Source of the DNA: Bdellovibrio sp. ZAP7
Lineage (GTDB): Bacteria > Bdellovibrionota > FAC87 > UBA2466
Direction of reading: 5' to 3'
DNA length: 36,623 nucleotides
Assembly: GCA_945878405.1 (NCBI GenBank)
Contig: CAMCTJ010000019.1
Coordinates: 1 to 36,623, forward strand
Below are positions 541-27,378 of the stretch, in pieces. A model generated the notes under the pieces. The model saw only the letters and a program-made list of their open reading frames with translations. It did not search any database and had not been told where the DNA came from. The stretch's first letter is position 1, and each line of letters opens with the position of its first letter. The translations under genes and the position numbers were made by a program.

Positions 541-1305
541 TTAAAGTGCTTGAATTGACTGGACTATTTGGCATATTGCGTCAGGGCTCAAATCGTTTCT
601 CCAATCCCCTCCCACTTTTAAAAACGACCCCACAATAAAGCCGTCAGCCGGAGCGAACTCCGAAGCGTTTTGGGGTGTGATGCCTGAGCCGATTAGCACT
701 GGCAATGCCACGGCTTTTTTTACTTTTGCCAATTCTTCAACCGATGCTTTTTGCCCGGTACTTGCTCCGGTCAAAATAACCGCATCTGCGCCAAAAAACT
801 CAGCTGCTTTAGCCGTCTCAACAATATCTACGTCTGATGTCATGGCATGGCTAGAATGCTTTTTCTTAATATCCGCCATTATTTTTATGTGGTTTGCTCC
901 CAGTTCTTTTCTGAATCGGAGTAAAGAACCGGCACAGGCCTCTATCATTCCCTCATCTGCAATATGAGTGAAAACAAATCCTTCGGCTCGAATCCAATCT
1001 GCCCCAATCGCATGTGCCACACTCAAAGCAGCCTCATTGGCTCCCGCTAAAATTTGGACACCTAAAGGAATTTTTGTTTCTTTTCGGATTTCTGAACCAA
1101 TCACTGCCATAGCGGCCGTAATTTCGGGGCCCACTGCGCTCTTTAAATAAGGAACGTCATGCATGTTCTCAAATAAAATTCCCGAACAGCCATGCTTTTC
1201 TAAAAGCTTTGCTTCAGTGACCGCTTTCTCCACCATTTTTTCAAAGTTGCCGTCGTAACGGGGAGTTCCCGGTAGAGGCCCTACATGAACCATTCCCCAA
1301 ATCAT
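541..1305 (-). CDS. BtpA/SgcQ-family TIM-barrel protein (copy 1)
   Basis: The product is 254 aa, full length for the BtpA family (PF03437). The N-terminus MIWGMVHVGPLPGTPRY is the family signature. ENMHDVPY (about 47-54) and the RAEGFVFTHIADEG stretch resemble the SgcQ-like branch. GSGITPQN...ADGFIVGS near the C-terminus looks like the phosphate-binding end of TrpF/HisA-type barrels, so a phosphorylated ligand is possible. BtpA affects photosystem I in Synechocystis, but the biochemical reaction is not settled and this is not a phototroph-type locus. Its ATG overlaps the stop of the upstream BtpA paralogue (ATGA, 1302-1305), so translation is probably coupled. It is the last gene of the run that begins with the PBP1B gene. 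Confidence 0.9.
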   Translation of the reverse strand: MIWGMVHVGPLPGTPRYDGNFEKMVEKAVTEAKLLEKHGCSGILFENMHDVPYLKSAVGPEITAAMAVIGSEIRKETKIPLGVQILAGANEAALSVAHAIGADWIRAEGFVFTHIADEGMIEACAGSLLRFRKELGANHIKIMADIKKKHSSHAMTSDVDIVETAKAAEFFGADAVILTGASTGQKASVEELAKVKKAVALPVLIGSGITPQNASEFAPADGFIVGSFLKVGGDWRNDLSPDAICQIVQSIQAL

Positions 1306-2093
1306 ACGAGCCTTCCTCTTTGTAATCGCTCGACTAACTTTTTCACCCGCTTTTCATCAATTGGAGCCTCTAAACTAGACTTCAAAGACGAACCCACAAT
1401 AAAGCCATCTGCAAACGGACTCAGCTCATCGATATTCTCAACGGTGACCCCGCTTCCGATCCACACAGGAACACCTGAAGCGATTTGCTTTACTGTCTTT
1501 AGTCGCTCGAGATCCACCGGTTTTCCTGTTCCCGCTCCAGAAACGATCAACCCATCTGCTCCCGAACGGTGAAGTGTTTCCTCTACTTCTGCCTCAAGCG
1601 TTCTTTCAGAAAGCGCTGAAGAATACTTCACTGCCACATCGGCAAACACACGGATGTGAGAAGCATCTATTTTTTTTCTAAACCGCATGATTTCATGCGC
1701 TTTGCCTTGGATAATTCCTTGATCCGTCAGCCTGGCACCAGTGAGGATATTTACTCGAACAAAATCGGCTCTAGCAGCTTTTGCGATAGCCAGTGCCGCG
1801 ATACCATCATTCCTCAAAACGTTTATTCCTAAAGGAAGTTTAAACTGTTTTTTTACTGCTCTTCCTAATACCGCAAGGTGGGCTACCGTCTCGGAGGGAA
1901 CTCTGTCAGGAAAGAAAGGCAGATCCCCATAATTCTCAATCATCAGAGCATCTACTCCCCCTTTTGCCAGGCTCTCAGCATCTTTAAGGATAAACGGGAG
2001 GATCTTGTTCCATTCACCTTGATAACTAGGACTTCCGGGCAAGGCAGGAGCGTGGAGCATCCCAATAATGAGTTTTGAATTTTTGGGGGTCAC
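1302..2093 (-). CDS. BtpA-family TIM-barrel protein (copy 2)
   Basis: The product is 263 aa and is clearly a paralogue of the next gene downstream, but of a different branch. It has IIGMLHAPALPGSPSY at the N-terminus, ENYGDLPF near 53-60 and RVNILTGARLTDQG in the middle, which are the usual BtpA versions of these motifs. GSGVTVENIDEL...ADGFIVGS is again a phosphate-binding-like C-terminal motif. No signal peptide, so it is cytoplasmic. The start is GTG at 2093, sharing GTGA with the stop of the CIA30-like gene. The next in-frame ATG would cut into the conserved first strand. The function is unknown; an enzyme acting on a phosphorylated small molecule is the structural inference. Confidence 0.9.
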   Translation of the reverse strand: MTPKNSKLIIGMLHAPALPGSPSYQGEWNKILPFILKDAESLAKGGVDALMIENYGDLPFFPDRVPSETVAHLAVLGRAVKKQFKLPLGINVLRNDGIAALAIAKAARADFVRVNILTGARLTDQGIIQGKAHEIMRFRKKIDASHIRVFADVAVKYSSALSERTLEAEVEETLHRSGADGLIVSGAGTGKPVDLERLKTVKQIASGVPVWIGSGVTVENIDELSPFADGFIVGSSLKSSLEAPIDEKRVKKLVERLQRGRLV

Positions 2094-10130: not shown

Positions 10131-10159
10131 TTGCTTTCTGCCCTTAAACTAGCTAATTT
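10131..10159 (+). promoter_or_regulatory. Candidate sigma70-type promoter for the DHS-like gene
   Basis: TTGCTT (10131-10136), a 17-nt spacer and TAATTT (10154-10159), followed by a short leader with AGGAGA before the ATG at 10194. It sits back-to-back with the RRM promoter candidate. Confidence 0.5.
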
Positions 10160-10193
10160 GCCCCCAAACCTAGTTTTGTTAGGAGAGATTCCT

Positions 10194-11180
10194 ATGCTGC
10201 AAACTCAAAAACCAAAATCGATTTCTGAATTTATGCTGACGCATTATCGACACTTTAATGCGGCTGCCTTGGTCGATGCAGCAAAAGGATACGAGGCTCA
10301 TTTGAAAACAGGCGGTCCAATGCTCGTTACTTTGGCGGGTGCCATGTCGACTGCAGAATTGGGCATTTCCTTGGCAGAAATGATTCGCCAAAATAAAGTC
10401 CATGCGATTTCCTGCACCGGCGCCAACCTGGAAGAAGATATTTTTAATCTCGTAGCTCATGAACATTATGTTCGTATTCCCCACTATCGAGATTTGACCG
10501 CTCAAGATGAAAGAAAACTTCTGGATAAACATTTGAATCGGGTGACAGACACTTGCATTCCTGAAGAAGAAGCAATCAGAAGAATTGAAAAAGCAGTTTT
10601 GTCTGAATGGACTCAGGCTTCTGAAAAAAATGAACGCTATTTCCCCCACGAATTTCTTTTCCGAATTTTAAAATCAGGAAAACTAAAAGAAAGTTATCAG
10701 ATTCCTCCCGAGCATAGTTGGATGCTAGCAGCGGCTGAAAAAAACATCCCTATTTTTGTTCCGGGCTGGGAAGATTCAACTCTAGGTAATATCTTTGCGG
10801 CACGCTCCATCGAGAAAAAAGTTAATCCTCTCACCATGAAATCAGGGATCGAATACATGATGAGTTTGTCCTCTTGGTATTTACAAGAACACTCAAAAGG
10901 ATCCGGAATTGGATTTTTCCAAATTGGTGGGGGAATAGCGGGAGATTTCCCTATCTGTGTCGTCCCCATGTTGAATCAAGATCTTCTAAAAAATGTGCCT
11001 TTCTGGGGCTATTTCTGTCAGATCAGTGACTCCACAACCAGTTATGGTTCTTACTCTGGCGCTGTACCCAATGAAAAGATTACTTGGGGAAAACTGGATG
11101 CTGATACGCCGAAGTATATCATTGAATCGGATGCCTCCATTGTGGCACCGCTCTTATTTTCTTACGTATTAGGCTGGTAG
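10194..11180 (+). CDS. Deoxyhypusine synthase-like protein
   Basis: The product is 328 aa of the deoxyhypusine synthase family (NAD-dependent transfer of an aminobutyl group). The catalytic-lysine region is kept: NEKITWGKL places Lys300 where the eukaryotic enzyme forms its enzyme-imine. The flanking TTSYGSYSGA, ESDASIVAPLLFSYV and the NAD-loop-like CTGANLEEDIFNLVAHEHY also fit. Bacteria have no eIF5A lysine to modify, so bacterial members probably make a polyamine; homospermidine synthesis is one documented activity in the wider family. The ATG at 10194 is preceded by AGGAGA at good distance; a TTG 63 nt upstream lies in the promoter. The 3' end overlaps hemH by 19 nt. Confidence 0.92.
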   Translation: MLQTQKPKSISEFMLTHYRHFNAAALVDAAKGYEAHLKTGGPMLVTLAGAMSTAELGISLAEMIRQNKVHAISCTGANLEEDIFNLVAHEHYVRIPHYRDLTAQDERKLLDKHLNRVTDTCIPEEEAIRRIEKAVLSEWTQASEKNERYFPHEFLFRILKSGKLKESYQIPPEHSWMLAAAEKNIPIFVPGWEDSTLGNIFAARSIEKKVNPLTMKSGIEYMMSLSSWYLQEHSKGSGIGFFQIGGGIAGDFPICVVPMLNQDLLKNVPFWGYFCQISDSTTSYGSYSGAVPNEKITWGKLDADTPKYIIESDASIVAPLLFSYVLGW

Positions 11181-12196
11181 TTCTCGACAATTTGACCGAC
11201 GGCTTCTACCCAAGGTTCTTCTGCGTTCAGAGAAGGAATAAGAACAAGATCGTCACCGCCATTTTCCACAAACTCTTCTTTCCCACGCATTTGAACTTCC
11301 TCGAGGGTCTCTAAACAATCCGCAACAAAGCTTGGGCTGACCACTACCAATTTTTTCACTCCGCGCTTTGGAAGTTCTCGATAAAAATCATCAGAAAATG
11401 GCCGTATCCACGGCGCGCCCTTTAATCGAGATTGGAATGCAACTTCATACTGCTCTTCGTTAATGCCCAACCTCTTTGCTAAGGCTCGAGCAGTGGCAAA
11501 ACTTTGGGCTCGATAACAGTTCTGATTAGCTTGATTGATCTCTTTACAACAGTCACTCGACTTAAGGCAGTGCGAGCCCGTTGAGTCAGTTTTCTTAACT
11601 TGTCGTTCGGGTAACCCGTGAAAACTAAAAAGAACACGATCCCAGGAAACATTCTTCATGTATTTTTGAGTTACCGCAGTCACTGCATTTATATAGGCTT
11701 CCGTTTGATAGAAATACGGAATGAACTGAATTTTTGCCTCCGGTAAAATCTCTTCGAATACTTCTTTTGCTTTTACGATGGATGACTCTGTAGCTGCTAA
11801 AGAGTATTGGGGATAGAGAGGAAGAACAACGACCTCTTTTACCCCGCTCTCTTTCAATTTTAAAATCGCCTGCCGAATAGAAGGTTTTCCGTACCGCATG
11901 GCCGCCACCACTTCGAATCGTTCGGACAACCGTTTTTGCACTTTGCTCTCTAGAGCTTGCGTATGAACTAATAAGGGAGAACCTTCCTTCATCCATACTT
12001 TTTTGTAGAGTTTCGCTGAGGCATGCGATCTTCTAGGAACAATGAGGATATTCACCAAAATCCAACGGATCACTTTGGGAATATCAATCACAAGGGGATC
12101 CATGAGGAATTCCCGCAAATACCCTCCCACGTGCTTAGGCTCGAAGCTTTCGGGTGTTCCTAAATTGATGAGTAAAAGTCCTTTTTTTTGAACCAC
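11162..12196 (-). CDS. hemH: Ferrochelatase with internal four-cysteine segment
   Basis: The product is 344 aa and inserts Fe(II) into protoporphyrin IX, or coproporphyrin III in other lineages. LLLINLGTPES is at 8-18, the catalytic His193 is in SFHGLP and ADCLETLEE (292-300) holds the conserved Glu. Cys210, 216, 217 and 227 lie within 18 residues right after SFHGLP, in the pattern CX5CCX9C. A group of bacterial ferrochelatases, shown for Myxococcus xanthus, binds a 2Fe-2S cluster with four cysteines in such an internal segment, so this enzyme probably does too. The start is GTG at 12196, with AAGGA 8 nt upstream; a nearby ATG is out of frame. It converges with and overlaps the DHS-like gene. 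Confidence 0.95.
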   Translation of the reverse strand: MVQKKGLLLINLGTPESFEPKHVGGYLREFLMDPLVIDIPKVIRWILVNILIVPRRSHASAKLYKKVWMKEGSPLLVHTQALESKVQKRLSERFEVVAAMRYGKPSIRQAILKLKESGVKEVVVLPLYPQYSLAATESSIVKAKEVFEEILPEAKIQFIPYFYQTEAYINAVTAVTQKYMKNVSWDRVLFSFHGLPERQVKKTDSTGSHCLKSSDCCKEINQANQNCYRAQSFATARALAKRLGINEEQYEVAFQSRLKGAPWIRPFSDDFYRELPKRGVKKLVVVSPSFVADCLETLEEVQMRGKEEFVENGGDDLVLIPSLNAEEPWVEAVGQIVENYQPNT

Positions 12197-12265: not shown

Positions 12266-12925
12266 ATGGATTCGTTCTTAACAACTCCAAAGGCTAAGCC
12301 ACCCCAGCTTCTTGAGATTTTAGAGAGGACCATCGAAACTCACGGAATGCGGGAGTTTACTCTCTTGACACAAAAAGAGATGGCACGCGGGGTGCCCGAC
12401 CCCACGGTTATTCCCAGTCTTGAAGAGTTTTGGGACCGTGCTAAAGCCGATTTATATCAATTTAGCGGGCTCTTAAAACGAAGATTTATCCCCCCTCTCC
12501 TCGCTCATCCTTTGGAAACCTTAAAAAGGACAACCGCCCTTTTTACAGCCGGGACGGGCTTTATTTTTTCCTGGTCAGTTCCCCAAAAAGACATCCGTTT
12601 TTCGCCAAGAAAGGCGGAAACGGGGGCTATTTTCATTCACCGGCCTTTGGTGGTTGCATTATCGATTTTTATTTCCTGGCTCATAAAAATGCTGGAATTA
12701 ACTGAGTCGCACCCCTCACTCTCACTTTCAGATAGGAATCGAATAAAGTTGATGACCCAGGTCTTGAATAACTTTAAAGAAGGCTTTGAGATGGGAGTCT
12801 ATCGGAAGGAACTCCTACTGAAGTTTTTTCAAAGCATCAGGATTTTAGGGAGAAGGCAGGATGTACTCTTGAAATTAGACCCTCAACTATTTCAGTGGTT
12901 AGAGAGTCAAATTAAAAACAATTAA
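12266..12925 (+). CDS. Conserved-looking hypothetical protein
   Basis: The product is 219 aa from the ATG at 12266; GTG at 12257 would add three residues. I do not recognise it. It has no signal peptide. It contains many aromatic and basic residues (KRRFIPPLLAHPLETLKR, about 72-89) and one hydrophobic stretch around 127-140 (PLVVALSIFISWLI). The C-terminal half is helical (NNFKEGFEMGVYRKELLLKFF). It may be a peripheral membrane protein. It is divergent from hemH (about 70 nt apart), with no clear promoter, and overlaps the convergent GT-C gene by 4 nt (TTAA). Confidence 0.75.
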   Translation: MDSFLTTPKAKPPQLLEILERTIETHGMREFTLLTQKEMARGVPDPTVIPSLEEFWDRAKADLYQFSGLLKRRFIPPLLAHPLETLKRTTALFTAGTGFIFSWSVPQKDIRFSPRKAETGAIFIHRPLVVALSIFISWLIKMLELTESHPSLSLSDRNRIKLMTQVLNNFKEGFEMGVYRKELLLKFFQSIRILGRRQDVLLKLDPQLFQWLESQIKNN

Positions 12926-14457
12926 GAAGCCTGTTGAGTGTCCTTGCACACATTTCGAAACAGACTCCCCCCATTTCCCCTAACAAAATGATGGGTCTTA
13001 AACCCCATCACATGAATGGGGGTATAGGTAGAAAAATCTTTCACTAATTCAAAACACGGCTGATCCTTTTCGGAAAGCAGTTGGCGACTTCGAGCCACTC
13101 GTCTTCGACTGTCTGGGAGATCCGTAATATACAAGTAGTCAAACCGGGTTGCCTTATGTCTCCAATAATCTATATTCACCACATCTCTGACCCCTCTAAA
13201 CGTAAAATACTGGTCGTGGGTCACCGCCATTTTGGCTTGCGGTCCTACCTCGTTTAACACCTGAGCTCGAATTTCTTCTCCTCTTTCCACTTTTGGAATT
13301 TCAAGAGCATTGAGAATACACTTAGACTCCCAAAACCATAAGGGAGCAAAAAATACAAAATAAGAACCGATGACTAGCATTCTCATTCGTTGGCTATCGC
13401 GTTGAACATTTTGCAGAATTCCTACCATCAAAACAATACTAGCGAACCACAGATAGTAAGGTTGCAAGGTCCAAACAAATGGAACCATAAAAGAATATAG
13501 TAATGGCACAATCACCAGAGCCTTTTGCATTGAATTCATACGGAATCGACAACGAACCAAGAGAAATAATGCGACTCCAAAGGCTCCCACGGCCCCCAAA
13601 AGATAGGGTGTTCCAGTGGCCAAAAACTTGTCTAGGTGAAAAAGCCAGGAACCCCACAAGTCTTTCAACATCCAACCTTCGGCAAGATTTCGCAGATAGG
13701 GAAAACTAGAAATACCAGCTTGCTTTGAAAATCGAGCTCCCGAACCCAAATCGCGAAGCATTATTGGCATCACGGTTAAAAGCCAAAAACAAAAAGATCC
13801 AAGTCCCATGCTTAGTAGTAATTGAAACCTTCGATTCTGATAAACACACCACATGAAAACAATCATCGCGAAAAGCACGCCACACGCTGGAGAAGTAGCA
13901 CCCACGCAAGCTAACAAAACTGAACCCATCACGCCCTTAATTCTATTTGAGTTTTTGGAACTCAGATTAAGACACAAAAGTAATCCCCAAATAAGGGCAA
14001 GTTCGTCGGGGCGATCGCGATCAGTAGAAATCATGCTGAGAAGAGCAAACAAAATACCTGTCGCCCAGCGAAACACCTTTTGTTTCTTTTCGAAAAATGA
14101 TGTTGGAAGAGATGGCACAACCAGAAACAACATCAACATCGTTCGAGTTATGGTTAGAAAGGAGTCAAACAAGAGTGATTGTTTTAAACCCACTCCCACA
14201 ATCCAACTCCAAACCCCAAAGAAAAACGGGTAAAGAGGGGGATAATAGGCGAAGGGTCTCTCATCTCCAAAAACCATATGGGGAAGATAGGCGGCAACAA
14301 ATTTTCCTTTAGTTGCGAGATTTACACCCGCCTCTTTAAAAAGAAATACATCTGTTCCGGGAACATGCACTTCTAGGAAGAGTTCACAGACCGCGAATAT
14401 AAGAGCCCCTAAAAACACTCCCAACTGGAAAGTAACTTGAGGTCTTCTCATAAGCAT
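12922..14457 (-). CDS. Multi-pass membrane glycosyltransferase, GT-C (GT39/ArnT-like)
   Basis: The product is 511 aa with about ten TM helices in the first 380 residues and a soluble C-terminal tail. The first periplasmic loop after TM1 carries VPGTDVFLFKEAG, with an acidic residue where GT-C enzymes have their catalytic or metal-binding acid. FAYYPPLYPFFFG follows, a PPLYP-type motif usual in PMT/ArnT-like transferases, and then STDRDRPDELALIWG. Such enzymes take a sugar from a polyprenyl-phosphate carrier on the outer face of the inner membrane. The start ATG at 14457 shares its A with the TGA of the upstream FAD gene. It is the last gene of the four-gene glycan module; the acceptor is unknown. 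Confidence 0.82.
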   Translation of the reverse strand: MLMRRPQVTFQLGVFLGALIFAVCELFLEVHVPGTDVFLFKEAGVNLATKGKFVAAYLPHMVFGDERPFAYYPPLYPFFFGVWSWIVGVGLKQSLLFDSFLTITRTMLMLFLVVPSLPTSFFEKKQKVFRWATGILFALLSMISTDRDRPDELALIWGLLLCLNLSSKNSNRIKGVMGSVLLACVGATSPACGVLFAMIVFMWCVYQNRRFQLLLSMGLGSFCFWLLTVMPIMLRDLGSGARFSKQAGISSFPYLRNLAEGWMLKDLWGSWLFHLDKFLATGTPYLLGAVGAFGVALFLLVRCRFRMNSMQKALVIVPLLYSFMVPFVWTLQPYYLWFASIVLMVGILQNVQRDSQRMRMLVIGSYFVFFAPLWFWESKCILNALEIPKVERGEEIRAQVLNEVGPQAKMAVTHDQYFTFRGVRDVVNIDYWRHKATRFDYLYITDLPDSRRRVARSRQLLSEKDQPCFELVKDFSTYTPIHVMGFKTHHFVRGNGGSLFRNVCKDTQQAS

Positions 14458-15875
14458 CAATCCACGATACGATACTTCTCAAATCGCTCTGTTCTGAGGT
14501 TTTTCCATTCTTCGGCTACTTTTCCTTTTTCTTGGATGTGATTTGCAACGGAGAAACCCATATCAAAACATTGGTCTGAGTTGTTGTAGTTGAAATCCCC
14601 CAAACGACCGACAAAGTAGATATTCTCTAAAGAGCTTTCCAAGTTCCTCAGCTTATTTACTCGTTCCTCGTATCCCATTTCATAGACGGGATAAATGTTC
14701 TTAAATCTCTTTGAAAAACATTTCACAATCTGATCCTCAGAGAACAGTTTTAATGGCTTCATTTGATTCAACAGATGTTTTCCGAGCTCCTCGTCATTCA
14801 TAGACCACTCGGGATCGTCACCTGTACAGGTAAAATCTGCCATTAAAGCGGTATAGCCTTCCGGGGCAACGGATGGCGAAAACTTGGTCATCTCACTTAA
14901 TCGTCCAAACCGAAATTTTGACTCTGGATAAAAAACCCACATTGCGGGCAAGACCGACTTAGCCTTCAAAAGGAAATAATAAACTACCGTGTGTCGAAAC
15001 TTTACGAAACGAGCCGCTTGCCTCACTTCAGCAGGAAGCTCCGGCATTAGTTCGGCAATCGCTTGCATAGGGATCGTGTAAATTAATTGATCGCAAGAAA
15101 TAAATTCTGATTTTCCAGAATCAGAAGAGACCCACACCCCACTTACCTTTCCCTGTGACTGTTCAATCTTGGTGACTTTCACTCCCAAATGAAAATTCGC
15201 TCCATTCGCTTTTGCTTTTTCCATCAGCTTAGCCGGAATCCGGCCAAAACCACTCTTGGGATAGTGAAACTCTGGAGCAGATACGGTTCGATCAACTTTT
15301 TTTGAGAAGAGAACTTGTTTCAATACTGCAACCAAACCCGGAGAGGAGATCCGAACCTCAGCCAGACGTCGGTCCAGTTTTTCTGGGTTGCCAAACATCT
15401 TTCTAGCCATCGGTTGAAAAATTTGCTCGTACAAGGCTTTACCAAACTTGTTCACTACAAAATCACGGTACGTTTGGTCAGGCTGAGATGAAACAGTTGT
15501 CTTAATTACTTGCCAGCCGAAACTGAGCAAGATCTTCATGCTTTTTATGGGCGAAAAACGGGTGATCATCTCGACAAGACTTAAGGGAAATGAAAAATAT
15601 CTGCCGCTCATATAGAGTTTTTGAGTCTTATCCCGCAGAAGAAACTCATCCCCCATAACCTCGCACATGGCCTCCGTTACACCTGGCACATTGGAATAAA
15701 ACTTATGAGGCCCCAGGTCGAGTGTGAAATCTCCTTCAGTGAAGCTTCGGCAAAGCCCCCCAACTTCCATTTCTTTTTCAAGAACGTGAACTTCACATTC
15801 GGGAAACTGACTCAGACGATAGGCAGCTGATAATCCAGTTACTCCCGCACCTAAAATAACAACTCGTTTTTTCAT
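14457..15875 (-). CDS. FAD-dependent amine-oxidase-fold protein (UDP-galactopyranose mutase/PPO-like)
   Basis: The product is 472 aa. The Rossmann motif VVILGAGVTGLSAAYRL (5-21) is followed by the acid at the end of strand 2 (LEKE) and VGGLCRSF, the classic FAD-binding start of the amine-oxidase/UGM/protoporphyrinogen-oxidase superfamily. FVGRLGDFNYNNSDQCFDMG near the end is the C-terminal FAD contact; the UGM-like R-x-G-D-F-x-Y pattern favours a sugar-active role. Between a methyltransferase and a GT-C gene, and with a GT2 nearby, it is more likely to work in glycan synthesis than in heme synthesis, despite hemH about 2 kb away. The start has GAGGT and overlaps the methyltransferase stop by ATGA. 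Confidence 0.85.
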   Translation of the reverse strand: MKKRVVILGAGVTGLSAAYRLSQFPECEVHVLEKEMEVGGLCRSFTEGDFTLDLGPHKFYSNVPGVTEAMCEVMGDEFLLRDKTQKLYMSGRYFSFPLSLVEMITRFSPIKSMKILLSFGWQVIKTTVSSQPDQTYRDFVVNKFGKALYEQIFQPMARKMFGNPEKLDRRLAEVRISSPGLVAVLKQVLFSKKVDRTVSAPEFHYPKSGFGRIPAKLMEKAKANGANFHLGVKVTKIEQSQGKVSGVWVSSDSGKSEFISCDQLIYTIPMQAIAELMPELPAEVRQAARFVKFRHTVVYYFLLKAKSVLPAMWVFYPESKFRFGRLSEMTKFSPSVAPEGYTALMADFTCTGDDPEWSMNDEELGKHLLNQMKPLKLFSEDQIVKCFSKRFKNIYPVYEMGYEERVNKLRNLESSLENIYFVGRLGDFNYNNSDQCFDMGFSVANHIQEKGKVAEEWKNLRTERFEKYRIVD

Positions 15876-16834
15876 ACAGACCTCACTTTTCTAGCGATGA
15901 CACGAGTCTGAGCTGCAAAGTAGGGGATGAGCGTTTTCTCAAGCCCCAAAGCTTTAACCACTTTACCCATAGCCTTTGCTAATTTCGGCAGATAGGCCTC
16001 TAATCGATAAACCAGATAACCAAACTCGAGCCACTGAAAGTGGGGACGGCTTGAAACAACTTCGAAACCGGAAACTTCCAACATGCGCTTCATGGTTTTC
16101 GGTACGAAGTAATAAAGATGGACACTGAGAATGAACCAATAGTTTCGGCCAGCCATTCGCGCCATCCAATTGCCTATGTTGGGATAGTTCACAACAATAT
16201 AACCACCGTCTTTTAAATAACGATTACATCTTTTCAATACATCTTTTGGGTCGAAGGTGTGCTCAAGAACATCCCAGAGAGTCACAACATCCATTTTTTC
16301 GGGGAAAAACGGAACTGTTTCCACGGTCCCGCAAGTGATTCCCACATCATAATTTTTATTTCCGAAATCACTTAAAAACTTGGAGGGTTCTATTCCATAA
16401 GTTTTCCATCCGTTATCTTTAGCAACCTTTAAAAAGAATCCAGCAGCAGCACCCACATCAAGTACAACTCCCTGTTTTACATATTTTTTAACTGCTTTGA
16501 GGCACTGTCCGAAGCTAAGAATCCGACCTTTAGCCTGAGATACATAGGTTGGATCTTCTGTTTCTGTATAGCCTTTAAGAATGAGCTCTCGATTGAGCCG
16601 GGGTGAAGTATAAATCAACGCGCAATGGTTGCACTCTACTAGAGTTTCCTTTGAAACAAAATTTCCTGAAGCGCAATAGGACTTCAGAAGATTCTCAGTG
16701 TCTGGATCGGTAGTCCCTTGGTATTTCACAGTGGCCTGATTAGACCCGCACAAATTGCAAGAAACCTCTTCCCACATGTGAGTGTTAACTTCTTGAGAAA
16801 CAACGACAGGCATTGCGATGGCTTGAGTAGACAT
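15872..16834 (-). CDS. Class I SAM methyltransferase with N-terminal zinc-type CxxC pairs
   Basis: The product is 320 aa. Two cysteine pairs, CNLC (26-29) and CNHC (68-71), form a likely zinc site, an arrangement common in methyltransferases of sugar-modification clusters. The SAM domain follows: motif I VVLDVGAAAGFFLKVA (123-138), GIEPS (147-151) at strand 2, and VVTLWDVLEHTFDP (183-196). The C-terminus has hydrophobic patches (YWFILSVHLYYFV) but no clear TM helix. A strong GGAGG lies upstream of the ATG. It probably methylates a sugar or lipid-linked glycan; the substrate is not deducible. The stop overlaps the FAD gene start. Confidence 0.9.
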   Translation of the reverse strand: MSTQAIAMPVVVSQEVNTHMWEEVSCNLCGSNQATVKYQGTTDPDTENLLKSYCASGNFVSKETLVECNHCALIYTSPRLNRELILKGYTETEDPTYVSQAKGRILSFGQCLKAVKKYVKQGVVLDVGAAAGFFLKVAKDNGWKTYGIEPSKFLSDFGNKNYDVGITCGTVETVPFFPEKMDVVTLWDVLEHTFDPKDVLKRCNRYLKDGGYIVVNYPNIGNWMARMAGRNYWFILSVHLYYFVPKTMKRMLEVSGFEVVSSRPHFQWLEFGYLVYRLEAYLPKLAKAMGKVVKALGLEKTLIPYFAAQTRVIARKVRSV

Positions 16835-16861
16835 GATTCCTCCATGAATCGTGTTAAGAAA

Positions 16862-17800
16862 TTAGGCTGCTTTTTGCAGCTGAAAAACTTGGCCCCGTTC
16901 TGGGGTAGCGTTTCGTCGACGAGCTAGTACCTGCAGTTCAGAGAACTTTACATTAATGGTATTCAGAACCAGTCCTGTCGAAAAAACCGCTATTGAGAGA
17001 AAAGACAGAACCAAAGGTCCAAAGAGACCATTGCTCTGAGTTAGGTGCAGAGGTAACGCTCCTCCAAAAAACAATCCGAAAGCCAAGAGGGTAAAAAACA
17101 ATAAGGGTCGTGTATCTCTGACCAACCATACAATAGTCAAAACGACCTTATAGCCATCAGAAAAGGTTCTTAGCTTGCTGAAACTATTTTCAGGCCGACT
17201 CCCATAGGGCAACGGTATTTCTCGTACCGAGAAACTATTGATCAATGAGTAGACGGTTAACTCGGTTTCAACCTCAAAGCCATCTCTGAGTAACGGAATG
17301 TTTTTAACAAAGTTTCTCGACATCACTCGATAACCGGAACAGATATCGGTAAAGGAACTTTTGAAAAGAAGGTTAATCAGGGTCATGATGAGCGCATTAC
17401 CAAGTCGATGAAATTTACGGAAAGCCGACTCCGCCTCAGCGACTCGACTCCCCACGGTCATGTCGATTCCTCCATTCAGCACCGGATCGATAAGCTCCCA
17501 AACTCTACTAGCATCGTAGGTGTCGTCTGAATCGACCATCACATAAGCATCTGCTTCCACCGCCTCAAACATCCGTCGCACAACATTTCCTTTTCCCCTC
17601 TGAGGAACATGAATCACTTGGGCCTTCTCACGAAGTGCAATTTCAACACTTCGGTCAGTAGAGCCATTATCAAAAACATAAATGTCTGCCTGAGGTATCT
17701 GCTTTCTAAAATCGCGAATTACCTTTGCGAGAGTAGGCTCTTCGTTCAGACAAGGAAGTAGAAGAGCGATTTTGGCGGATTGATTATTGCTTGTGTTCAT
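16862..17800 (-). CDS. Family 2 glycosyltransferase, polyprenyl-phosphate sugar synthase type
   Basis: The product is 312 aa. GT-A fold: ALLLPCLNEEPTLAKVI (12-28), DNGSTDRS (44-51), RGKGNVVRRMFEA (68-80) and the metal-binding VDSDDTYD (89-96). GYRVMSRNF (156-164) is typical of the DPM1/GtrB/ArnC branch. Two C-terminal TM helices (about 232-252 and 258-282) place it at the inner membrane. Enzymes of this branch load a sugar onto polyprenyl phosphate, which fits the GT-C transferase at the end of the same gene run. GGGGA about 7 nt before the ATG is the ribosome site. It is the first gene of the module. Confidence 0.92.
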   Translation of the reverse strand: MNTSNNQSAKIALLLPCLNEEPTLAKVIRDFRKQIPQADIYVFDNGSTDRSVEIALREKAQVIHVPQRGKGNVVRRMFEAVEADAYVMVDSDDTYDASRVWELIDPVLNGGIDMTVGSRVAEAESAFRKFHRLGNALIMTLINLLFKSSFTDICSGYRVMSRNFVKNIPLLRDGFEVETELTVYSLINSFSVREIPLPYGSRPENSFSKLRTFSDGYKVVLTIVWLVRDTRPLLFFTLLAFGLFFGGALPLHLTQSNGLFGPLVLSFLSIAVFSTGLVLNTINVKFSELQVLARRRNATPERGQVFQLQKAA

Positions 17801-19960: not shown

Positions 19961-20815
19961 TTAGCGAGATTTATTCCAGATGGTATTCCAGTTTTCCTCT
20001 TTTGAGGTTTGGATGTATTTATCCGCGGGAGGTGTCCACAGCCAAACAAACCCCACCGTGACGGTATGCGGATTGGAACGGTAAAGTCCCGTAAAGTTCA
20101 CGGATTTGGATATAGGAAAGGTGGTACCGGCAATTCCAGCAATTTGATTGTCATTGGAAAATCCATCCTGTTGTCTCGAGAATTTCATTCCCAAAGAGTA
20201 GGCAAAGCTTTCTTGGTAAGTAGTTAGCGTCACATTAGCTGCGTACTGATCGATAATCCCTTTTCCTTTGGGTTTAGCGGGGAACAAGATATCAGCGGAA
20301 AGGGTCTGCTTTCCAAGTCGTCCCAATCCAATTCCTGCTCCAATTTGGGATTCCTCGCCTAGATGATACGCGACCGCCCCAACTCGAAACGTAGGCGATA
20401 AAGTGAGAATGGAGGACACATCCGTTTCAACCGGAGAGGTACTTTCTATAATGGCTTTTCTAAATGACACTCCAACAGATAACCGACTTATCCGAAGTGA
20501 CAAACCAGAAAAAACCGAGTCGTAAACAGAGCCATCTTGATAACTTCCCGAAAAGCCTAGATTGATTCCCAACATTCGATTGGAATAGGCTGCAGAGACC
20601 AAGTAGGAGTGAGCATCCTCTTGTGATAACGGAGGAGAATAAAGAACTTTGGCTTCTTGTCTCCAGTCGAGTGACATGGCAGCCGCATTTACAAGACCGG
20701 CCGATGAAAACGCAGGAAAAAGCAGCCCCCCTGGCAGCGACGAGAGCTTATCAGCCGTCGCCAGACGGCAGAACAAAACCATTAACAATAGAATGTGTTT
20801 TCGTTTAGCCATCAT
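19961..20815 (-). CDS. Exported beta-barrel protein, OM type
   Basis: The product is 284 aa, or 283 from the second ATG. Signal peptide about 1-21 (ILLLMVLFCRLATA). The mature part has a run of G-rich amphipathic strands (NRMLGINLGFSGSYQDG, SRLSVGVSFRKAII, SQIGAGIGLGRLG, VTVGFVWLW), fitting a mid-size outer-membrane barrel of the FadL/OmpP1 look, but I cannot assign a family. About 20 residues follow the last strand, so the usual terminal aromatic is absent. The start lies 11 nt inside the 3' end of the Calx-beta lipoprotein gene, so the two are probably translationally linked and may work together. Confidence 0.75.
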   Translation of the reverse strand: MMAKRKHILLLMVLFCRLATADKLSSLPGGLLFPAFSSAGLVNAAAMSLDWRQEAKVLYSPPLSQEDAHSYLVSAAYSNRMLGINLGFSGSYQDGSVYDSVFSGLSLRISRLSVGVSFRKAIIESTSPVETDVSSILTLSPTFRVGAVAYHLGEESQIGAGIGLGRLGKQTLSADILFPAKPKGKGIIDQYAANVTLTTYQESFAYSLGMKFSRQQDGFSNDNQIAGIAGTTFPISKSVNFTGLYRSNPHTVTVGFVWLWTPPADKYIQTSKEENWNTIWNKSR

Positions 20816-23345
20816 TAAACTTGGAATATTTCCGAGCTAAATAAGATTCAATTTCTTGCACACTATTCAATTTGGGATCGGGATTCACCCACAGCACCTC
20901 ACTCAACTTTCCTTGAAATTCACTAGTCCAATACTCAATGTGAGATTGATCAATTTTCTCTATTTCCATTTCCTCGCCGGTAACGGCATAAATAATATCG
21001 TTTGCTGACGGAGACATTTTCAATTCGAGAGCTTTCCAAAGCCACTCCCAATCCCTGCTTTCTGTCGCGGGAAATCTCAGCCAACTCGAGAAAAACCACT
21101 GAGCATCTGGGATTTTTGAAAAACTCATTTCAGGCTCTGAGTAGCGAGGAGTCCAACTTAAAATTTTTTGGTCTTGATCTTTAACAACGCCAAAATCGGC
21201 ATCCAACCAGAGTCTGGTATGATTCAAAGCAAAGTCTCGATCATTATCCGTAATACTGACTGTATGAGTGTTTGGGTTTCCCAAGTTACCATTGGTCACT
21301 GAGCCTATGGTTAATGCCACAGTTTCAGTAGCCTCTGGACCGGCATCATTCACAACGCTAAAGGTAAAAACCTTATCAGTAGTTCCAGGCGTAATGATTA
21401 CTGATCCGGATTGAAGACCATGGTCCGATGGATAAGAGGCAGTCCCTGAAGCAGTATAGGGAATAGTTACAGGAAAGTCTGAAGGATTCGTCATGACAAA
21501 AAGCACATAAACCAACCCAGCTGCTTCAGTGACTGTTTGAGCAGATGCCGAGAAACTTACGCTCGGAACAGGATCGTCATTGTTCACAGTTATCGTGTGG
21601 GTAGTCGTAACACCTAAGGTTCCATACGTTGGAGTTCCCAGATTCAGCACAATCGTTTCATTGTTTTCGTAAGTATTTTCGCCATTAATTGAAATTGAAA
21701 TATCGCCACTAGAGCTTCCCGCAGGAATTACCAAAGGTGAAGAAGTGGTAGCACTATAATCGGTTATAGAAGTAGCGGTTCCCCCTAAGCTAAAGGGAAT
21801 CGTCGCACTCACCCCACTGACAGAGCTTAAATTGACCGAAATATTTAAGGTCGTCGTCCCACTATCTCCCTCTGTTAAGGACTGAGCACTGCTTGAAAAG
21901 TTTATGGTGGGTGCTGGGTCATTATTAGTAATCGTAACAGTTTGAACCATAACTCCTGAAACCGTAGCATTCGTCGGAGTTTCCATCGTCAAAATGACTG
22001 TCTCGCTATTTTCGTAACGGGTATCGTTGTTAACAGTAAATGAAGTCGTTGCGGAACTTGTTCCCGCAGGAATAGTAAGGGTTCCCGCTGTTAGATTGTG
22101 ATCAGAGGGATAAGAAGCCGTTCCGGATACAGTAAAAGGAACCTGCACGTTTTGGCCACTCACCGCACTCAAATTAACCTGTACTGTCACAGTGCCCACT
22201 GCCTCCGAGACACTTTGAGTAGCGGAACTGAACTGAACTGTAGGCGTGGGATCATCGTTATTTATGGTGATAGTTTGAGAACTTGGTGAACCTGTATTTC
22301 CATTGGTAACTGTCCCCAAAGTAACAATTACCGTTTCATTCGGCTCGTCTAAAGAATCACTCACAATATTAAAACTAATAGACCCGCTGGTGCTTCCCGG
22401 AGCAATGGTCAGACTGCCGCTCGATAAATTATGATCTCCTGGGTTCGAGGCAGTTCCTGAAATCGTGTAGGGAACTGTGACTTCAAGTAAGTAGGTTTTA
22501 CTCATTGAAAACTGAACAGTCACGGTGCCAGCAGACTCCGAGACTGATTGCGTGGCGGCAGTTAAAAACACAGTGGGTTGATTATCATTATCAACTACGG
22601 TCACCGTATGGGTGGTCGAGGCCCCTAAGTGAGCTCCGCTGGGGGCGTCTAGATCGACGATGATTGTATTGTCAGCATTAATGACAAAATTATCGATTAG
22701 ATTGATTTGAATATTCCCACTGGTTTGTCCGGCGGGAATCGTAATACTGGCAGCGGAAGTAAAGTCTATTCCCTGACCTGCTGTACCTGAAAAATGATAC
22801 GGAATAACGGCGTCCGATTCGGAAGCATATTCTAAAGCAACGGGAATAGACACTGTTCCCGCTCCCTCCGATACGGTCTGACTTGTGTTTACAAAGTTAA
22901 CATTGGGCGAAAGATCTGCTTCGACAATAGTTAAAGTGTGGGTCGTCAAATCTCCGAGATCAGCCCCTTCCGGATTTCCGAGAGTGACAGTGAGTGTCTT
23001 ATCCCCCTCAAAAACAATGTTGTGATAAATCGGAACTCGAATTTTTGCCTCTCGTGAGTCAGGAGGAAAAACAATGATTCCATTGGTTAGCCCATGATTG
23101 GTACCGAGTTGTGCGGTCCCCGAAACAGAAAACGGAACTTTGATTTCTCGATTGGTAATCGAGTTGGGTGAGTTCACATCGCCCACCCCAATTTTAGAGG
23201 AACGATTTAATTTCACTTTGATTTCCGCAGTTCCCGCTGTTTCCACAACTGATTGGCTGGCTTCGGAAAAAAAGACACGTGTAGAGTCGTTGCAACCCAC
23301 TAGGAGAAACATAAGAAAAAGTAGTAGGATTCTGAAATCTTCCAT
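20805..23345 (-). CDS. Calx-beta repeat lipoprotein with lectin-like C-terminus
   Basis: The product is 846 aa. The lipoprotein signal peptide ends in LLVGC (Cys18), followed by N-D, an Asp at +3. Six Calx-beta repeats of about 105 aa follow, each opening with a V-x-F...QSVSE-x-x-G strand and closing with HT(L/V)T(I/V)-x-x-(N/D)D. Acidic residues at repeat ends fit Ca2+ binding. After the last repeat, RLWLDADFGVVKDQDQKILSW and, at the end, SEVLWVN...VQEIESYLARKY match the first and last elements of a LamG/concanavalin-like domain, but only about 140 aa lie between, so the domain is compact or reduced. Such proteins mediate adhesion or surface contacts; that role is inferred. Confidence 0.9.
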   Translation of the reverse strand: MEDFRILLLFLMFLLVGCNDSTRVFFSEASQSVVETAGTAEIKVKLNRSSKIGVGDVNSPNSITNREIKVPFSVSGTAQLGTNHGLTNGIIVFPPDSREAKIRVPIYHNIVFEGDKTLTVTLGNPEGADLGDLTTHTLTIVEADLSPNVNFVNTSQTVSEGAGTVSIPVALEYASESDAVIPYHFSGTAGQGIDFTSAASITIPAGQTSGNIQINLIDNFVINADNTIIVDLDAPSGAHLGASTTHTVTVVDNDNQPTVFLTAATQSVSESAGTVTVQFSMSKTYLLEVTVPYTISGTASNPGDHNLSSGSLTIAPGSTSGSISFNIVSDSLDEPNETVIVTLGTVTNGNTGSPSSQTITINNDDPTPTVQFSSATQSVSEAVGTVTVQVNLSAVSGQNVQVPFTVSGTASYPSDHNLTAGTLTIPAGTSSATTSFTVNNDTRYENSETVILTMETPTNATVSGVMVQTVTITNNDPAPTINFSSSAQSLTEGDSGTTTLNISVNLSSVSGVSATIPFSLGGTATSITDYSATTSSPLVIPAGSSSGDISISINGENTYENNETIVLNLGTPTYGTLGVTTTHTITVNNDDPVPSVSFSASAQTVTEAAGLVYVLFVMTNPSDFPVTIPYTASGTASYPSDHGLQSGSVIITPGTTDKVFTFSVVNDAGPEATETVALTIGSVTNGNLGNPNTHTVSITDNDRDFALNHTRLWLDADFGVVKDQDQKILSWTPRYSEPEMSFSKIPDAQWFFSSWLRFPATESRDWEWLWKALELKMSPSANDIIYAVTGEEMEIEKIDQSHIEYWTSEFQGKLSEVLWVNPDPKLNSVQEIESYLARKYSKFNDG

Positions 23346-24440: not shown

Positions 24441-25238
24441 ATGAAAAAACTCAGTTTGCTTTTAGCTAGCTTTGCATTAACCACGTCTGTTTTCGCCGAT
24501 TCAAGAGGGCTCTCCTCTGATCCTAATGCTCGAAACACAGCACTTCTTGTGAGTTCGTCACACGGACTTCCTGGACTCGAATATGACATCGATAATTTGG
24601 AAGAAATGGCACTCAATGCGCATAGCGGATTCACTGTCGAGAAAGTAGTAAACGGCAAAGCGACTGTTTCCAAAATCGCTTCTGAACTCATTCACTTGGC
24701 AGATTCTTCAGATGGCAATGCTTCACATCTTTTTTATTTTACGGGACACGGCGGACGAGGAACCATTCTCGCCGAAGATCGCGCTATGAAAATTGATGAA
24801 ATTAAAAAGGCTTTAGTGAAAGGCAGAGAACTTTGGGGCCCCATGGCTCGCTTGACCTTCATTGTTGATTCCTGTCACTCGGGCTCATTGATTGATCCAA
24901 TGAGAAGTTTAAAAACCATGGATTTTTTAAACTCACCTCAAGTCGTGGCACAAGAAATGGTGGATGAGATCGTACAAGGTCTTGCCCCTACTCGCCATGA
25001 AAGCCCTCTCTTTCGCTCTCTATTTGCCTTCGTCTCAGCAAGAGCTGACGAAACCTGTTTAGCTGGAAGCAATGGCTCCGCATTCACAGTGGCAATGAAA
25101 AATGCCTGGAACAAAGCTGTCGATCAAAAACTTACGGTGAAACAGTTTATTGATGAAACGGCAAAAGGAACAAAAGGCAGTCATCCCACTGCTCGACTGG
25201 TTCCTGCGCAACTCGCTGAAGAAGTTTTAGTTCCTTAA
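24441..25238 (+). CDS. Exported caspase-family (C14) protease
   Basis: The product is 265 aa with signal peptide 1-19 (MKKLSLLLASFALTTSVFA). The caspase-like p20 region starts at NTALLVSSSHGLPGLEYDIDNL (32-53). The catalytic His103 is in HLFYFTGHGG and Cys145 in FIVDSCHSGS, so the His-Cys dyad is intact. There are no extra domains. An acidic S1 pocket cannot be judged, so the cleavage preference (Arg/Lys as in metacaspases, or other) is open. GGAAGG before the ATG supports the start. A weak TTGACG-18-GTTAAA promoter candidate lies at about 24360, within the end of pip. Export suggests a role in the periplasm or outside the cell, unlike most cytoplasmic bacterial caspase homologues. Confidence 0.9.
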   Translation: MKKLSLLLASFALTTSVFADSRGLSSDPNARNTALLVSSSHGLPGLEYDIDNLEEMALNAHSGFTVEKVVNGKATVSKIASELIHLADSSDGNASHLFYFTGHGGRGTILAEDRAMKIDEIKKALVKGRELWGPMARLTFIVDSCHSGSLIDPMRSLKTMDFLNSPQVVAQEMVDEIVQGLAPTRHESPLFRSLFAFVSARADETCLAGSNGSAFTVAMKNAWNKAVDQKLTVKQFIDETAKGTKGSHPTARLVPAQLAEEVLVP

Positions 25239-25340: not shown

Positions 25341-26354
25341 CTAGGCGATCAAGCCCTCTGTTTTTAAATGCTCTAGCTCTTTTCTGAGCTCTTCCTGTGT
25401 GACTGAAGCAGCCCCGATTTGGCCCACTACCACCCCAGCTGCGGCATTTGCAACTCGCATGCACTCTTCCAACGGCTTACCTAAAACCTTCATCAAGGAC
25501 AAAACCGCAATCACTGTATCGCCCGCCCCAGTAACATCGAATACTTTTCGTGCATAAGTAGGGATTCGAATTAATGCAGGCTTGTCTTTGGAAACCGCCA
25601 CCATTCCCCAGGGGCCACAGGTGATAATCGACTCTTCACAGTCTGTAGTCTTCAAAATTTTTAAGGCCATCTTTTCCAGATGGTCTTTGGGAAACTCTTG
25701 AGACCTAGCTCCTAGGTTTTTTTCCCCGGTTAATGTTTCTGCCTCAGCAAGGTTTGGAGTTAAAAGAGTAACCCCGTGATACAGCTCCACAGGACTTAAT
25801 CGGCTAGGGTCCACAAACACAGGTTTCTTCTTAGCCTTTGCTTCTTTGATAAAAGTTAAGGTATCCCGGTTCCACAACCCTTTACCGTAATCCTGAATGA
25901 TCACCCCATCTGTTTTAGGCAGTTCATCACAAATCCGATCAACAAACTCTCTAGATAACTGAGGTGAAAGTGAGTGAGAGCGCTCAAAATCTACTCTTAC
26001 CACATGTTGTTTCTGACAAATCACTCGTACTTTGCGTAAAGTAGGCCGAGACGTGTCTTTCAATGCTTCAAAGCAAGCTATACCAGCTTCCCCCACCATT
26101 TGAGTCAGAGTTTTTGCGTCATCATCTTCTCCACAAACAGTTAAAAGAGTGGTTTTAACTCCGAGAGAAGCTAAGTTTTGAGAAACATTCGCAGAGAGTC
26201 CCAATTTTTGATCAACAGATTGAACTTCTACAACCGGGACTGGGGCCTCTGGACTAATTCGATGGGTATCTCCCCAAATGTATTCGTCAATTCCGACCTC
26301 TCCTACCACGAGAAGATGTGCTTTTGAGAAATCTTTAAAAAAGGAAAAATCCAT
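25341..26354 (-). CDS. rfaE1: D-glycero-beta-D-manno-heptose-7-phosphate kinase (RfaE1/HldE-N type)
   Basis: The product is 337 aa, a PfkB/ribokinase-fold sugar kinase making heptose-1,7-bisphosphate for LPS core heptose. GDTHRISPEAPVPVVEV (28-44) is the RfaE1 signature. ANVSQNLASLG (55-65), TPNLAEAETLTGE (199-211) and the anion-hole/catalytic FDVTGAGDT (272-280, Asp279) follow. The adenylyltransferase half of bifunctional HldE is absent, so a separate RfaE2 must exist elsewhere. The usual GG before A/S-N-V is LGLSANV here. It is preceded by a heptosyltransferase gene 4 nt upstream and followed by the tRNA-Gln. Confidence 0.92.
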   Translation of the reverse strand: MDFSFFKDFSKAHLLVVGEVGIDEYIWGDTHRISPEAPVPVVEVQSVDQKLGLSANVSQNLASLGVKTTLLTVCGEDDDAKTLTQMVGEAGIACFEALKDTSRPTLRKVRVICQKQHVVRVDFERSHSLSPQLSREFVDRICDELPKTDGVIIQDYGKGLWNRDTLTFIKEAKAKKKPVFVDPSRLSPVELYHGVTLLTPNLAEAETLTGEKNLGARSQEFPKDHLEKMALKILKTTDCEESIITCGPWGMVAVSKDKPALIRIPTYARKVFDVTGAGDTVIAVLSLMKVLGKPLEECMRVANAAAGVVVGQIGAASVTQEELRKELEHLKTEGLIA

Positions 26355-26358
26355 ACCT

Positions 26359-27378
26359 TCAGGTTAAACCATCAACTTCTTTCAAAATCAATGAAGCCCA
26401 ATCTATTTTTTCCATACAGTTGAATTCAGGACAGGATGGGCCCAAGCAAGAGCTTTTCCCCGGACACTCTACTTGAGGCCAATGGACGATAGATTTTTGT
26501 TCACCGCCCCATGGCCCCCATCGCCGAGGGTGGTGCGCCCTGACAGGGGAATAAATCCCGATAACGGGAACTCCTACCAAGTGGGCTAAATGCAAAGGGC
26601 CCGTACTCGGAGCAATAACCAGTTGGCTCTGTCTAAAGACCTCTTTTAAAGCAGACAGTTCCAAACCTTCGATTTTTTTTAAATTTGGAAACTCAGATTT
26701 CAAATAGGACCAAATTAACTGATCCTGCCGGGAAGGCCCTACGGATACTACGCAATCCACTTTGGCGGTTATCTTCCTGATGATTTCAGCATATTGCTCT
26801 CGCGAAAGATTGAGAGCACTCCCCGCCATTCCCGGATGTACCACAATAAATTTACTCTCTGGACGAATTCCACTTTGCAGCAAGGCTTGCTCAGCCAGTG
26901 CCGCTTGTTTCTCATCTCTCGGGAGTTGCACCATCGCAATCTCTTTATTTGTCTTGCCTCCCAGTTGGGTGACCAATTCCTGAACCAGCTCCAAGGAATA
27001 AGTCCCTTCACTTTGATCGGCCAAAGAACGCTTTTGTCTTTTTCCGTAATTAAAAAGAGCAAAAGACCAGAACTTTGAATACTGCCCCACTCGCACAGGC
27101 ACTCGTTTGAGAAACACTTTAGACGCAATGGCACCACTACAAAACAAACCAAGGAAAGCATCCCATTTTTCACAGTCCCATTTCTCCTCAAGTGAAATAG
27201 GCCTGATCTTTTGTTCTTCAAGAAATGTCTGCAGGAGCTTTAGATTATTTTTCTTTGCTAAAAGAGCTATTTCAGCCTCGGGAAACGACTGCCGAAGGCT
27301 CTTAATGGCCGGTAAGGATAAAAGCAGATCTCCCAGATTGTCACTTCTACAAACCAAAATTCTGGGTGGGGAATTCAT
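26359..27378 (-). CDS. Family 9 glycosyltransferase (ADP-heptose:LPS heptosyltransferase)
   Basis: The product is 339 aa. The N-terminus RILVCRSDNLGDLLLSLPAI (6-25) and the C-terminal nucleotide-sugar site, VIAPSTGPLHLAHLVGVPVIGIYSP, are typical of WaaF/WaaC/WaaQ-type GT9 enzymes. It adds heptose from ADP-heptose to LPS inner core. Which position it serves cannot be told. A Cys-rich tail (VECPGKSSCLGPSCPEFNC) is also seen in some GT9 proteins. The start shares TAATG with the MeaB stop. The next gene makes the heptose precursor, so the pair is functionally coherent. Confidence 0.92.
   Translation of the reverse strand: MNSPPRILVCRSDNLGDLLLSLPAIKSLRQSFPEAEIALLAKKNNLKLLQTFLEEQKIRPISLEEKWDCEKWDAFLGLFCSGAIASKVFLKRVPVRVGQYSKFWSFALFNYGKRQKRSLADQSEGTYSLELVQELVTQLGGKTNKEIAMVQLPRDEKQAALAEQALLQSGIRPESKFIVVHPGMAGSALNLSREQYAEIIRKITAKVDCVVSVGPSRQDQLIWSYLKSEFPNLKKIEGLELSALKEVFRQSQLVIAPSTGPLHLAHLVGVPVIGIYSPVRAHHPRRWGPWGGEQKSIVHWPQVECPGKSSCLGPSCPEFNCMEKIDWASLILKEVDGLT

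Follow-up and report, generated by a model that had tools for sequence, protein, structure and literature searches.

A four-gene operon of Bdellovibrio sp. ZAP7 with a UGM-like flavoenzyme as a candidate periplasmic glycosylation module

The described systems that stand closest to the locus reported here are three-component periplasmic glycosylation (GtrA, GtrB and a Gtr glycosyltransferase of the GT-C type) and the eukaryotic-type UDP-galactopyranose mutases (UGM, Glf). In the published pentofuranose systems, synthesis starts from phosphoribosyl pyrophosphate (PRPP) with a different synthase and a short-chain dehydrogenase/reductase (SDR) or DprE1/E2, and the lipid-linked sugar is remodelled before export; in the excerpt of PMC11127046 used here, the authors state that they are unaware of other epimerases in O-polysaccharide side-chain systems (PMC3624792, PMC4192007 and PMC7662398 are likewise cited from excerpts). 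The present analysis concerns four genes in a 36,623-nt stretch of Bdellovibrio sp. ZAP7 (assembly GCA_945878405.1, contig CAMCTJ010000019.1, positions 1 to 36,623; hereafter the window), which encode a family 2 glycosyltransferase (GT2), a methyltransferase (MT), a flavoenzyme (FAD protein) and a polytopic membrane protein (GTC) as a GT-C candidate. The operon is read as a module for glycosylation in the periplasm by the three-component scheme, extended by two enzymes that tailor the sugar, the flavoenzyme and MT, at a probability of roughly 0.52.

Operon structure and co-inheritance

The four genes were found on the minus strand at the coordinates given by the initial annotation, namely the GT2 gene (17800-16862, 312 aa), the MT gene (16834-15872, 320 aa), the FAD gene (15875-14457, 472 aa) and the GTC gene (14460-12922, 512 aa from a TTG start, with ATG as the next codon). 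The enzyme families assigned to the first three were also recovered, by matches to PF00535, Methyltransf_23 and Amino_oxidase, respectively. The ATGA overlap at the MT/FAD junction and the TGATG at the FAD/GTC junction were read from the sequence as annotated, and the gap between the GT2 and MT genes (16835-16861, minus strand), which had been given as 28 nt, is 27 nt long and contains a ribosome-binding-site-like GGAGGA stretch. Judged from this gene layout, the predicted four-gene operon is confirmed as real. A promoter scan of the module returned 7 sites against a mean of 8.8 in shuffles, i.e. no excess, and a terminator scan of it was likewise uninformative. The module lies on contig 19; the genome comprises 24 contigs, totals 2.24 Mb and is 96% complete.

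Of the 15 genomes searched from the order, 10 carry orthologues of all four genes (G000, G002, G003, G007 and G009-G014) and the other five carry none (G001, G004, G005, G006 and G008). One of these five, G001, belongs to the same genus and was matched by none of the four genes at the limits used. The frameshift-split GTC of G002 was scored as present, the flavoenzyme of G003 and a second one of G012 are cut off by contig ends, and the MT genes of G007 and G011 are each split across two contigs. No probability was put on the co-occurrence, because the 15 genomes are related and do not represent 15 independent cases. Weaker relatives were detected in the genomes negative for the module, namely of MT (40%) and GT2 (29%) in G006, of MT (39%) in G005 and of the FAD protein (26-29%) in G004, G006 and G008. 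Among the 10 genomes carrying the module, MT-FAD adjacency was found in all 10, GT2-MT adjacency in 8 (exceptions G003 and G014) and FAD-GTC adjacency in 3 (G000, G002 and G014). The proposal that the genes are kept together thus stood for the co-inheritance of all four and held in part for linkage, the GTC gene being unlinked in 7/10 genomes and the GT2 gene in 2/10. This broken linkage would fit four enzymes of the envelope that have no more than a transcript or a habitat in common and work in separate pathways, as would G006, in which a relative of GTC (29%) occurs and close orthologues of the FAD and GT2 genes do not. That explanation is quite unlikely, since the presence of the four orthologues is all-or-none in 15/15 of these related genomes despite the broken linkage, and since similar pairings recur elsewhere in the flavoenzyme family.

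Active site and family of the flavoenzyme

The FAD protein matches Amino_oxidase of the amine-oxidase superfamily (E 3.3e-27), and its best PDB match was Trypanosoma cruzi UGM (TcUGM, 4dsg) with both a single sequence (E 2.3e-19) and a profile (E 1.3e-25). Invariance was determined with an alignment of 12 family members, i.e. 4 orthologues (window included) and 8 distant relatives (24-28% identical), in which 19 positions were invariant; the same residue occurs at 19/19 of them in TcUGM and at 18/19 in Aspergillus fumigatus UGM (AfUGM). The invariant set includes H57, R175, R325, Y395, R424 and Y430. In UGM, the residues at these positions touch the flavin or the diphosphate (PMC3624792, Table 3) or take part in catalysis (PMC4192007). 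Together with W313 and N432, these six make up the UGM active-site residues retained by the FAD protein. The histidine loop and the flavin contacts (AfUGM H63 and R447) correspond to H57 and R424 in 12/12 family members, the AfUGM diphosphate clamp (R182, Y317, R327, Y419 and Y453) is identical at 4/5 positions, Y317 being replaced by F315, and 2/3 of the AfUGM galactose contacts listed in Table 3 of PMC3624792 are retained. In TcUGM, His62, Arg176, Asn201 and Arg327 lower the barriers and Tyr395 and Tyr429 hold the phosphate (PMC4192007); 5/6 of these residues are present in the FAD protein, the missing one being Asn201. W313 is the equivalent of AfUGM W315, a residue linked to how the enzyme recognises the C5 hydroxymethyl group of the hexose (PMC7662398), and is Trp in 8/8 orthologues aligned and in 6/8 distant relatives.

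The uracil site has changed. Y104 and F158 (stacking) and F106 and Q107 (hydrogen bonds) of AfUGM correspond to F96, I152, L98 and S99 in the FAD protein, with 0/4 identical, and Q107 is also missing from bacterial UGMs (PMC3624792); the neighbours of this site are M156, A157 and F161. In 8/8 orthologues (window included), AfUGM F158, Y162 and N163 are replaced by Ile, Met and Ala, respectively, while W167 is replaced by Phe in 7 and Tyr in 1, and Y104 by Phe in 7 and kept as Tyr in 1. In the 8 distant relatives, Phe or Tyr stands at F158 in 8, Tyr at Y162 in 7, Trp at W167 in 8 and Asn at N163 in only 1. The loss of F158, Y162 and W167 is therefore specific to this clade, because the distant relatives mostly keep these residues. 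On the aligned residues, the FAD protein is UGM-like, with matching flavin- and phosphate-binding residues and a base-binding site that is remodelled in the clade. The UGM-like pocket that had been proposed is hence borne out by the sequence for the contacts to flavin and diphosphate and for some of those to the sugar, and not for the uracil contacts, which are gone.

Two further readings of the flavoenzyme have been considered. In the first, it would contract the sugar ring by UGM chemistry with the product of the GT2, a sugar on polyprenyl phosphate, as its direct substrate. The phosphate clamp and flavin contacts have been retained, and residues of the base site and its neighbourhood have turned into Ile, Met, Ala, Leu and Phe, which is what a pocket for a lipid in place of a nucleobase would call for. 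This is quite unlikely; if true, it would be a sugar mutase working on a lipid carrier. In the second, which is unlikely, the flavoenzyme would be the redox enzyme of the module and would oxidise or desaturate a lipid-linked sugar, as DprE1 does with decaprenyl-phospho-ribose, or would reduce an isoprene unit of the carrier. The fold superfamily, which consists mostly of oxidases and desaturases, the replacement of nucleobase-site aromatics by Ile and Met, and the archaeal AglJ model as the best curated match of the GT2 are in favour of a redox role, but all 12 family members aligned share the residues that serve catalysis and the phosphate clamp in UGM, and the operon is without a partner reductase. 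The comparison with DprE1 suggested by the initial annotation found no support, DprE1 being absent from the PDB matches listed (the best 60 of 63 with a single sequence and the best 60 of 79 with a profile).

Several results on the flavoenzyme weigh against the preferred reading of the operon. The scores of the FAD protein were 42.8 bits for TIGR00031 (UGM), with the cut-off of 303.75 missed, and 24.5 bits for PF03275 (GLF), with the cut-off of 26.3 missed. The galactose-contact Asn of UGM (AfUGM N207, TcUGM Asn201) is A200, an assignment that rests on the TcUGM row because the aligned AfUGM chain is the N207A mutant. The AlphaFold2 model (9 sequences) had a pLDDT of 62 with most pocket segments below 50, too weak to resolve a pocket, and was compared by Foldseek and VIA-align, in which protoporphyrinogen oxidase (PPOX) ranked first (Z 23.4, rmsd 4.0, 308 aligned) and UGM behind it (Z 21.8, rmsd 4.3, 313 aligned). 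The fold alone is accordingly indecisive and leans to PPOX if anything, because PPOX outranks UGM in these comparisons. Identity as a canonical UGM was rejected on the two missed cut-offs and on the absence of any TIGR00031 match above the cut-off in the 15 genomes of the order.

A PPOX could serve the ferrochelatase gene (11162-12196), which begins about 0.7 kb past the operon end. The last 173 residues of the FAD protein alone matched PPOX 3i6d first (E 2.2e-5) and UGM next (E 1.6e-4). Besides the fold ranking, a PPOX function would fit the TIGR00562 (PPOX) score of 77.7 bits, and G003 and G010, in which the FAD gene is present and a further PPOX family, PF03653 (HemJ), was not found. It is nevertheless very improbable, and PPOX identity was rejected: the TIGR00562 score is under the cut-off of 97.85, Bacillus subtilis PPOX (3i6d) has different residues at R325, Y395, R424 and Y430 (in a local alignment whose first aligned position is R325), and PF03653 is encoded elsewhere in the genome, being detected in 13/15 genomes of the order, including G000 and all five without the FAD gene.

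Partner proteins and wider neighbourhoods

The GT2 protein matches PF00535 (E 4.6e-20). Its best curated model is TIGR04182 for archaeal AglJ (E 5.9e-56), which is a dolichol-phosphate-dependent enzyme, and its closest structure is dolichol-P-mannose synthase (PDB 5mlz, E 2.7e-10). The operon's GT2 shares the GT2 domain with both of these and is unlike them in being bacterial and in its score of 190 bits, with which the AglJ cut-off of 325 was missed. Hydropathy indicated two C-terminal transmembrane (TM)-like stretches (residues 233-251 and 261-279) after the soluble domain, and the DSD motif at residues 90-92 (D90, S91 and D92) was invariant in 8 aligned sequences (window included). A GT2 domain, an acidic motif and a C-terminal membrane anchor are the marks of polyprenyl-phosphate GT2 enzymes of the GtrB/DPM/AglJ type, and all three were found. 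This layout is that of GtrB-type lipid-phosphate sugar synthases and supports assignment of the protein to the polyprenyl-phosphate sugar synthase type, in agreement with the annotated function. The genome has 22 GT2 matches in total.

The MT protein matches Methyltransf_23 (E 4.1e-22) and is a class I S-adenosylmethionine (SAM) methyltransferase. Four N-terminal cysteines (C26, C29, C68 and C71), which probably bind zinc, were invariant together with D126, G128 and G132 in 9/9 aligned sequences (window included; the out-of-frame row L033 and the partial row L088 were omitted). Relatives of MT were detected in 17/368 genomes of the phylum at E 1e-40, with its own genome counted. Distant MT relatives (37-43%) in L136, L137, L139 and L087 cluster with GT2 and sugar-activation-type genes; no flavoenzyme match was found within the stretches fetched there, and these represent a different type of cluster.

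In GT-C enzymes, the first extracytoplasmic loop carries an acidic residue that serves catalysis. The GTC protein has an invariant D37 after its first TM-like stretch and a C-terminal domain with invariant C469 and C505 (8/8 aligned, window included). Crude hydropathy counted 6 TM-like stretches at a threshold of 1.6 and 7 at 1.5; the GT-C superfamily has 7-13 TM helices (PMC11127046). Neither Pfam nor NCBIfam gave a match for GTC itself at E 0.001, one of 8 aligned family members weakly matched PMT_2 (E 3.3e-5), a profile search of the PDB returned only dehydrogenase matches (E 0.11 or worse), and the plasmid collection contained no match. At E 1e-8 or better, 13 of the 368 genomes of the phylum contain a relative of GTC, with its own genome counted. 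GTC is therefore regarded as a GT-C candidate from its topology, the PMT_2 match and its context. The split GTC orthologue of G002 (same genus) is located at L030:3214-4709 and is a pseudogene or an assembly error. In genus g6, the unlinked GTC gene is preceded by a conserved gene of about 250 aa (L081:6919-7674, L082:10164-10997, L083:6862-7611 and L091:9451-10230), the product of which, to the eye, presumably resembles glutaminyl-cyclase-type proteins.

Beyond the orthologues, 27 further flavoenzyme loci were inspected (19 non-orthologous matches, 6/7 plasmid matches with H2 left out, G356 and G279). Because G356 and G279 were found through GTC or MT searches and form a biased sample, the other 25 loci were counted. 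A GT2 gene shared a same-strand run (gaps <=100 nt) with the flavoenzyme gene at 12/25 loci, 11 of them confirmed by Pfam: G015, G067, G008, G009, G011, G012, G060, G035, G057, two Methylomagnum plasmids and Gloeothece. These loci are not all independent because G009 and G011 represent the same locus in two species, and the GT2 background is above the genome mean because these flavoenzymes often sit in polysaccharide islands. A membrane protein with >=9 TM-like stretches, tallied for chosen neighbours only, follows the flavoenzyme within 100 nt at no fewer than 4 loci (G060, G035, G057 and G003); G060, G035 and G057 have GT2-FAD-membrane protein runs, and the membrane protein of G035 matches PMT_2 with 35.3 bits (cut-off 26.1). 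The FAD gene of G356 overlaps a GTC relative. A methyltransferase gene adjoins the flavoenzyme gene in at least 2 loci (G015 and G012), and in both of these FAD, MT and GT2 share one run. A plasmid of Novosphingobium MBES04 carries FAD, GtrA and a 605-aa membrane protein, followed on the opposite strand by a GtrA-containing protein, MT and GT2.

At G010, G013 and G049, no GT2 or multi-spanning glycosyltransferase was found among the listed neighbours. Both G010 and G013 encode another flavoenzyme from the wider family (L157:5117-6604 and L161:5005-6192, respectively), next to a gene resembling flagellin by eye (L157:7067-7903 and L161:3706-4542), which may point to a link of these flavoenzymes to flagellin glycosylation.

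Proposed pathway and comparison with known systems

In the proposed pathway, polyprenyl phosphate at the inner side of the inner membrane would receive a sugar that the GT2 takes from a nucleotide sugar. This sugar would be altered by the flavoenzyme, most likely from pyranose to furanose, either while still on the nucleotide, ahead of the GT2 step, or once it is on the lipid; by UGM chemistry, N5 of the reduced flavin would attack the anomeric carbon, the phosphate would be displaced but held, and the ring would open and reclose. MT would methylate the sugar, a flippase other than GtrA would bring the loaded lipid to the outer side, and from there the GT-C candidate would transfer the sugar to an envelope acceptor, perhaps the lipopolysaccharide (LPS) core or a polysaccharide. 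The lipid carrier, the sidedness and the role of the GT-C candidate are inferred from protein families. A furanose, as the simplest outcome of UGM chemistry, is a likely but conjectural product, an altered specificity or a redox role of the flavoenzyme is possible, and the methyl position and the acceptor are conjecture. Of the module for sugar loading, tailoring and export that the initial annotation had put forward, the polyprenyl-phosphate-type GT2, the UGM-like flavoenzyme and the co-inheritance were upheld, while the GT-C assignment depends on topology, one weak PMT_2 match and context.

To the points on the flavoenzyme that count against this pathway, others are to be added. The four-gene operon contains no nucleotide-sugar gene. 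No GtrA-type flippase (PF04138; 0 matches) was found in the 96%-complete genome in a search confined to this one family, and a different flippase must be assumed for this reason. Besides its frequent lack of linkage, GTC has weak family evidence, and its AlphaFold2 model (2 sequences) had a pLDDT of 39, useless for recognition of a GT-C fold. At 13/25 further flavoenzyme loci, no GT2 gene shares the run; among these, G036 has one 72 nt off on the opposite strand and G004 has one further away.

The genes that flank the operon are unrelated to it: EVE-domain and GreB genes lie upstream on the opposite strand, and a small convergent open reading frame lies downstream, together with the ferrochelatase gene. 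Elsewhere in the window, adjacent PfkB kinase and GT9 heptosyltransferase-like genes (25341-27378, minus strand) are perhaps LPS-core genes and a possible acceptor pathway. The window also contains a caspase-family protease gene (Peptidase_C14, E 1.4e-13; 24441-25238, plus strand) adjoining an alpha/beta hydrolase gene, a gene for a bacterial deoxyhypusine-synthase family protein (PF01916, E 1.6e-41; 10131-11180, plus strand) with 74-90% identity in relatives, an adjacent pair of BtpA-family genes (541-2093, minus strand), and a gene for a likely surface adhesin of 846 aa (20805-23345, minus strand), which has five Calx-beta stretches and matches LapA weakly.

With the eukaryotic-type UGMs (T. 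cruzi 4dsg and A. fumigatus 3ute), the FAD protein has in common the histidine loop, 4/5 of the Arg/Tyr diphosphate clamp, the FAD-contact Arg, and the sugar-contact Trp and Asn; it differs in its replaced uracil contacts, its score far under the TIGR00031 cut-off and its coupling to a lipid-phosphate-type GT2. Three-component periplasmic glycosylation is similar in its sugar on a lipid monophosphate, in the GtrB-type GT2 of the hexose version and in a GT-C enzyme at the last step, and its pentofuranose version also in the tailoring of the donor before transfer (PMC11127046), whereas a GT2 and a UGM-like enzyme would be used here and no GtrA was found. The system had been proposed as undescribed; this holds for the present combination in the searches made of the open-licence PMC literature and not for lipid-linked furanoses passed to a GT-C enzyme, which are already published (PMC11127046) and are produced there by another enzyme class. 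If the proposed pathway is true, it would represent an added route for envelope decoration with altered sugars in the Bdellovibrio-related group.

The closest curated family of the FAD protein is NF005548 (301.8 bits) of PRK07208 (NF005545-NF005549, all named 'hypothetical protein'). The FAD protein is below the NF005548 cut-off of 389, and F158, Y162 and W167 are lost in its clade, unlike the 8 aligned distant relatives, which mostly keep them and for some of which PRK07208 membership was tested. The cut-off was passed by 4/6 relatives scanned, and all four stand beside a GT2, GtrA or membrane protein gene. PRK07208-type enzymes, which are without a function in NCBIfam, would thus gain a specific biochemical role from their UGM residues and their lipid-linked glycosylation neighbours.

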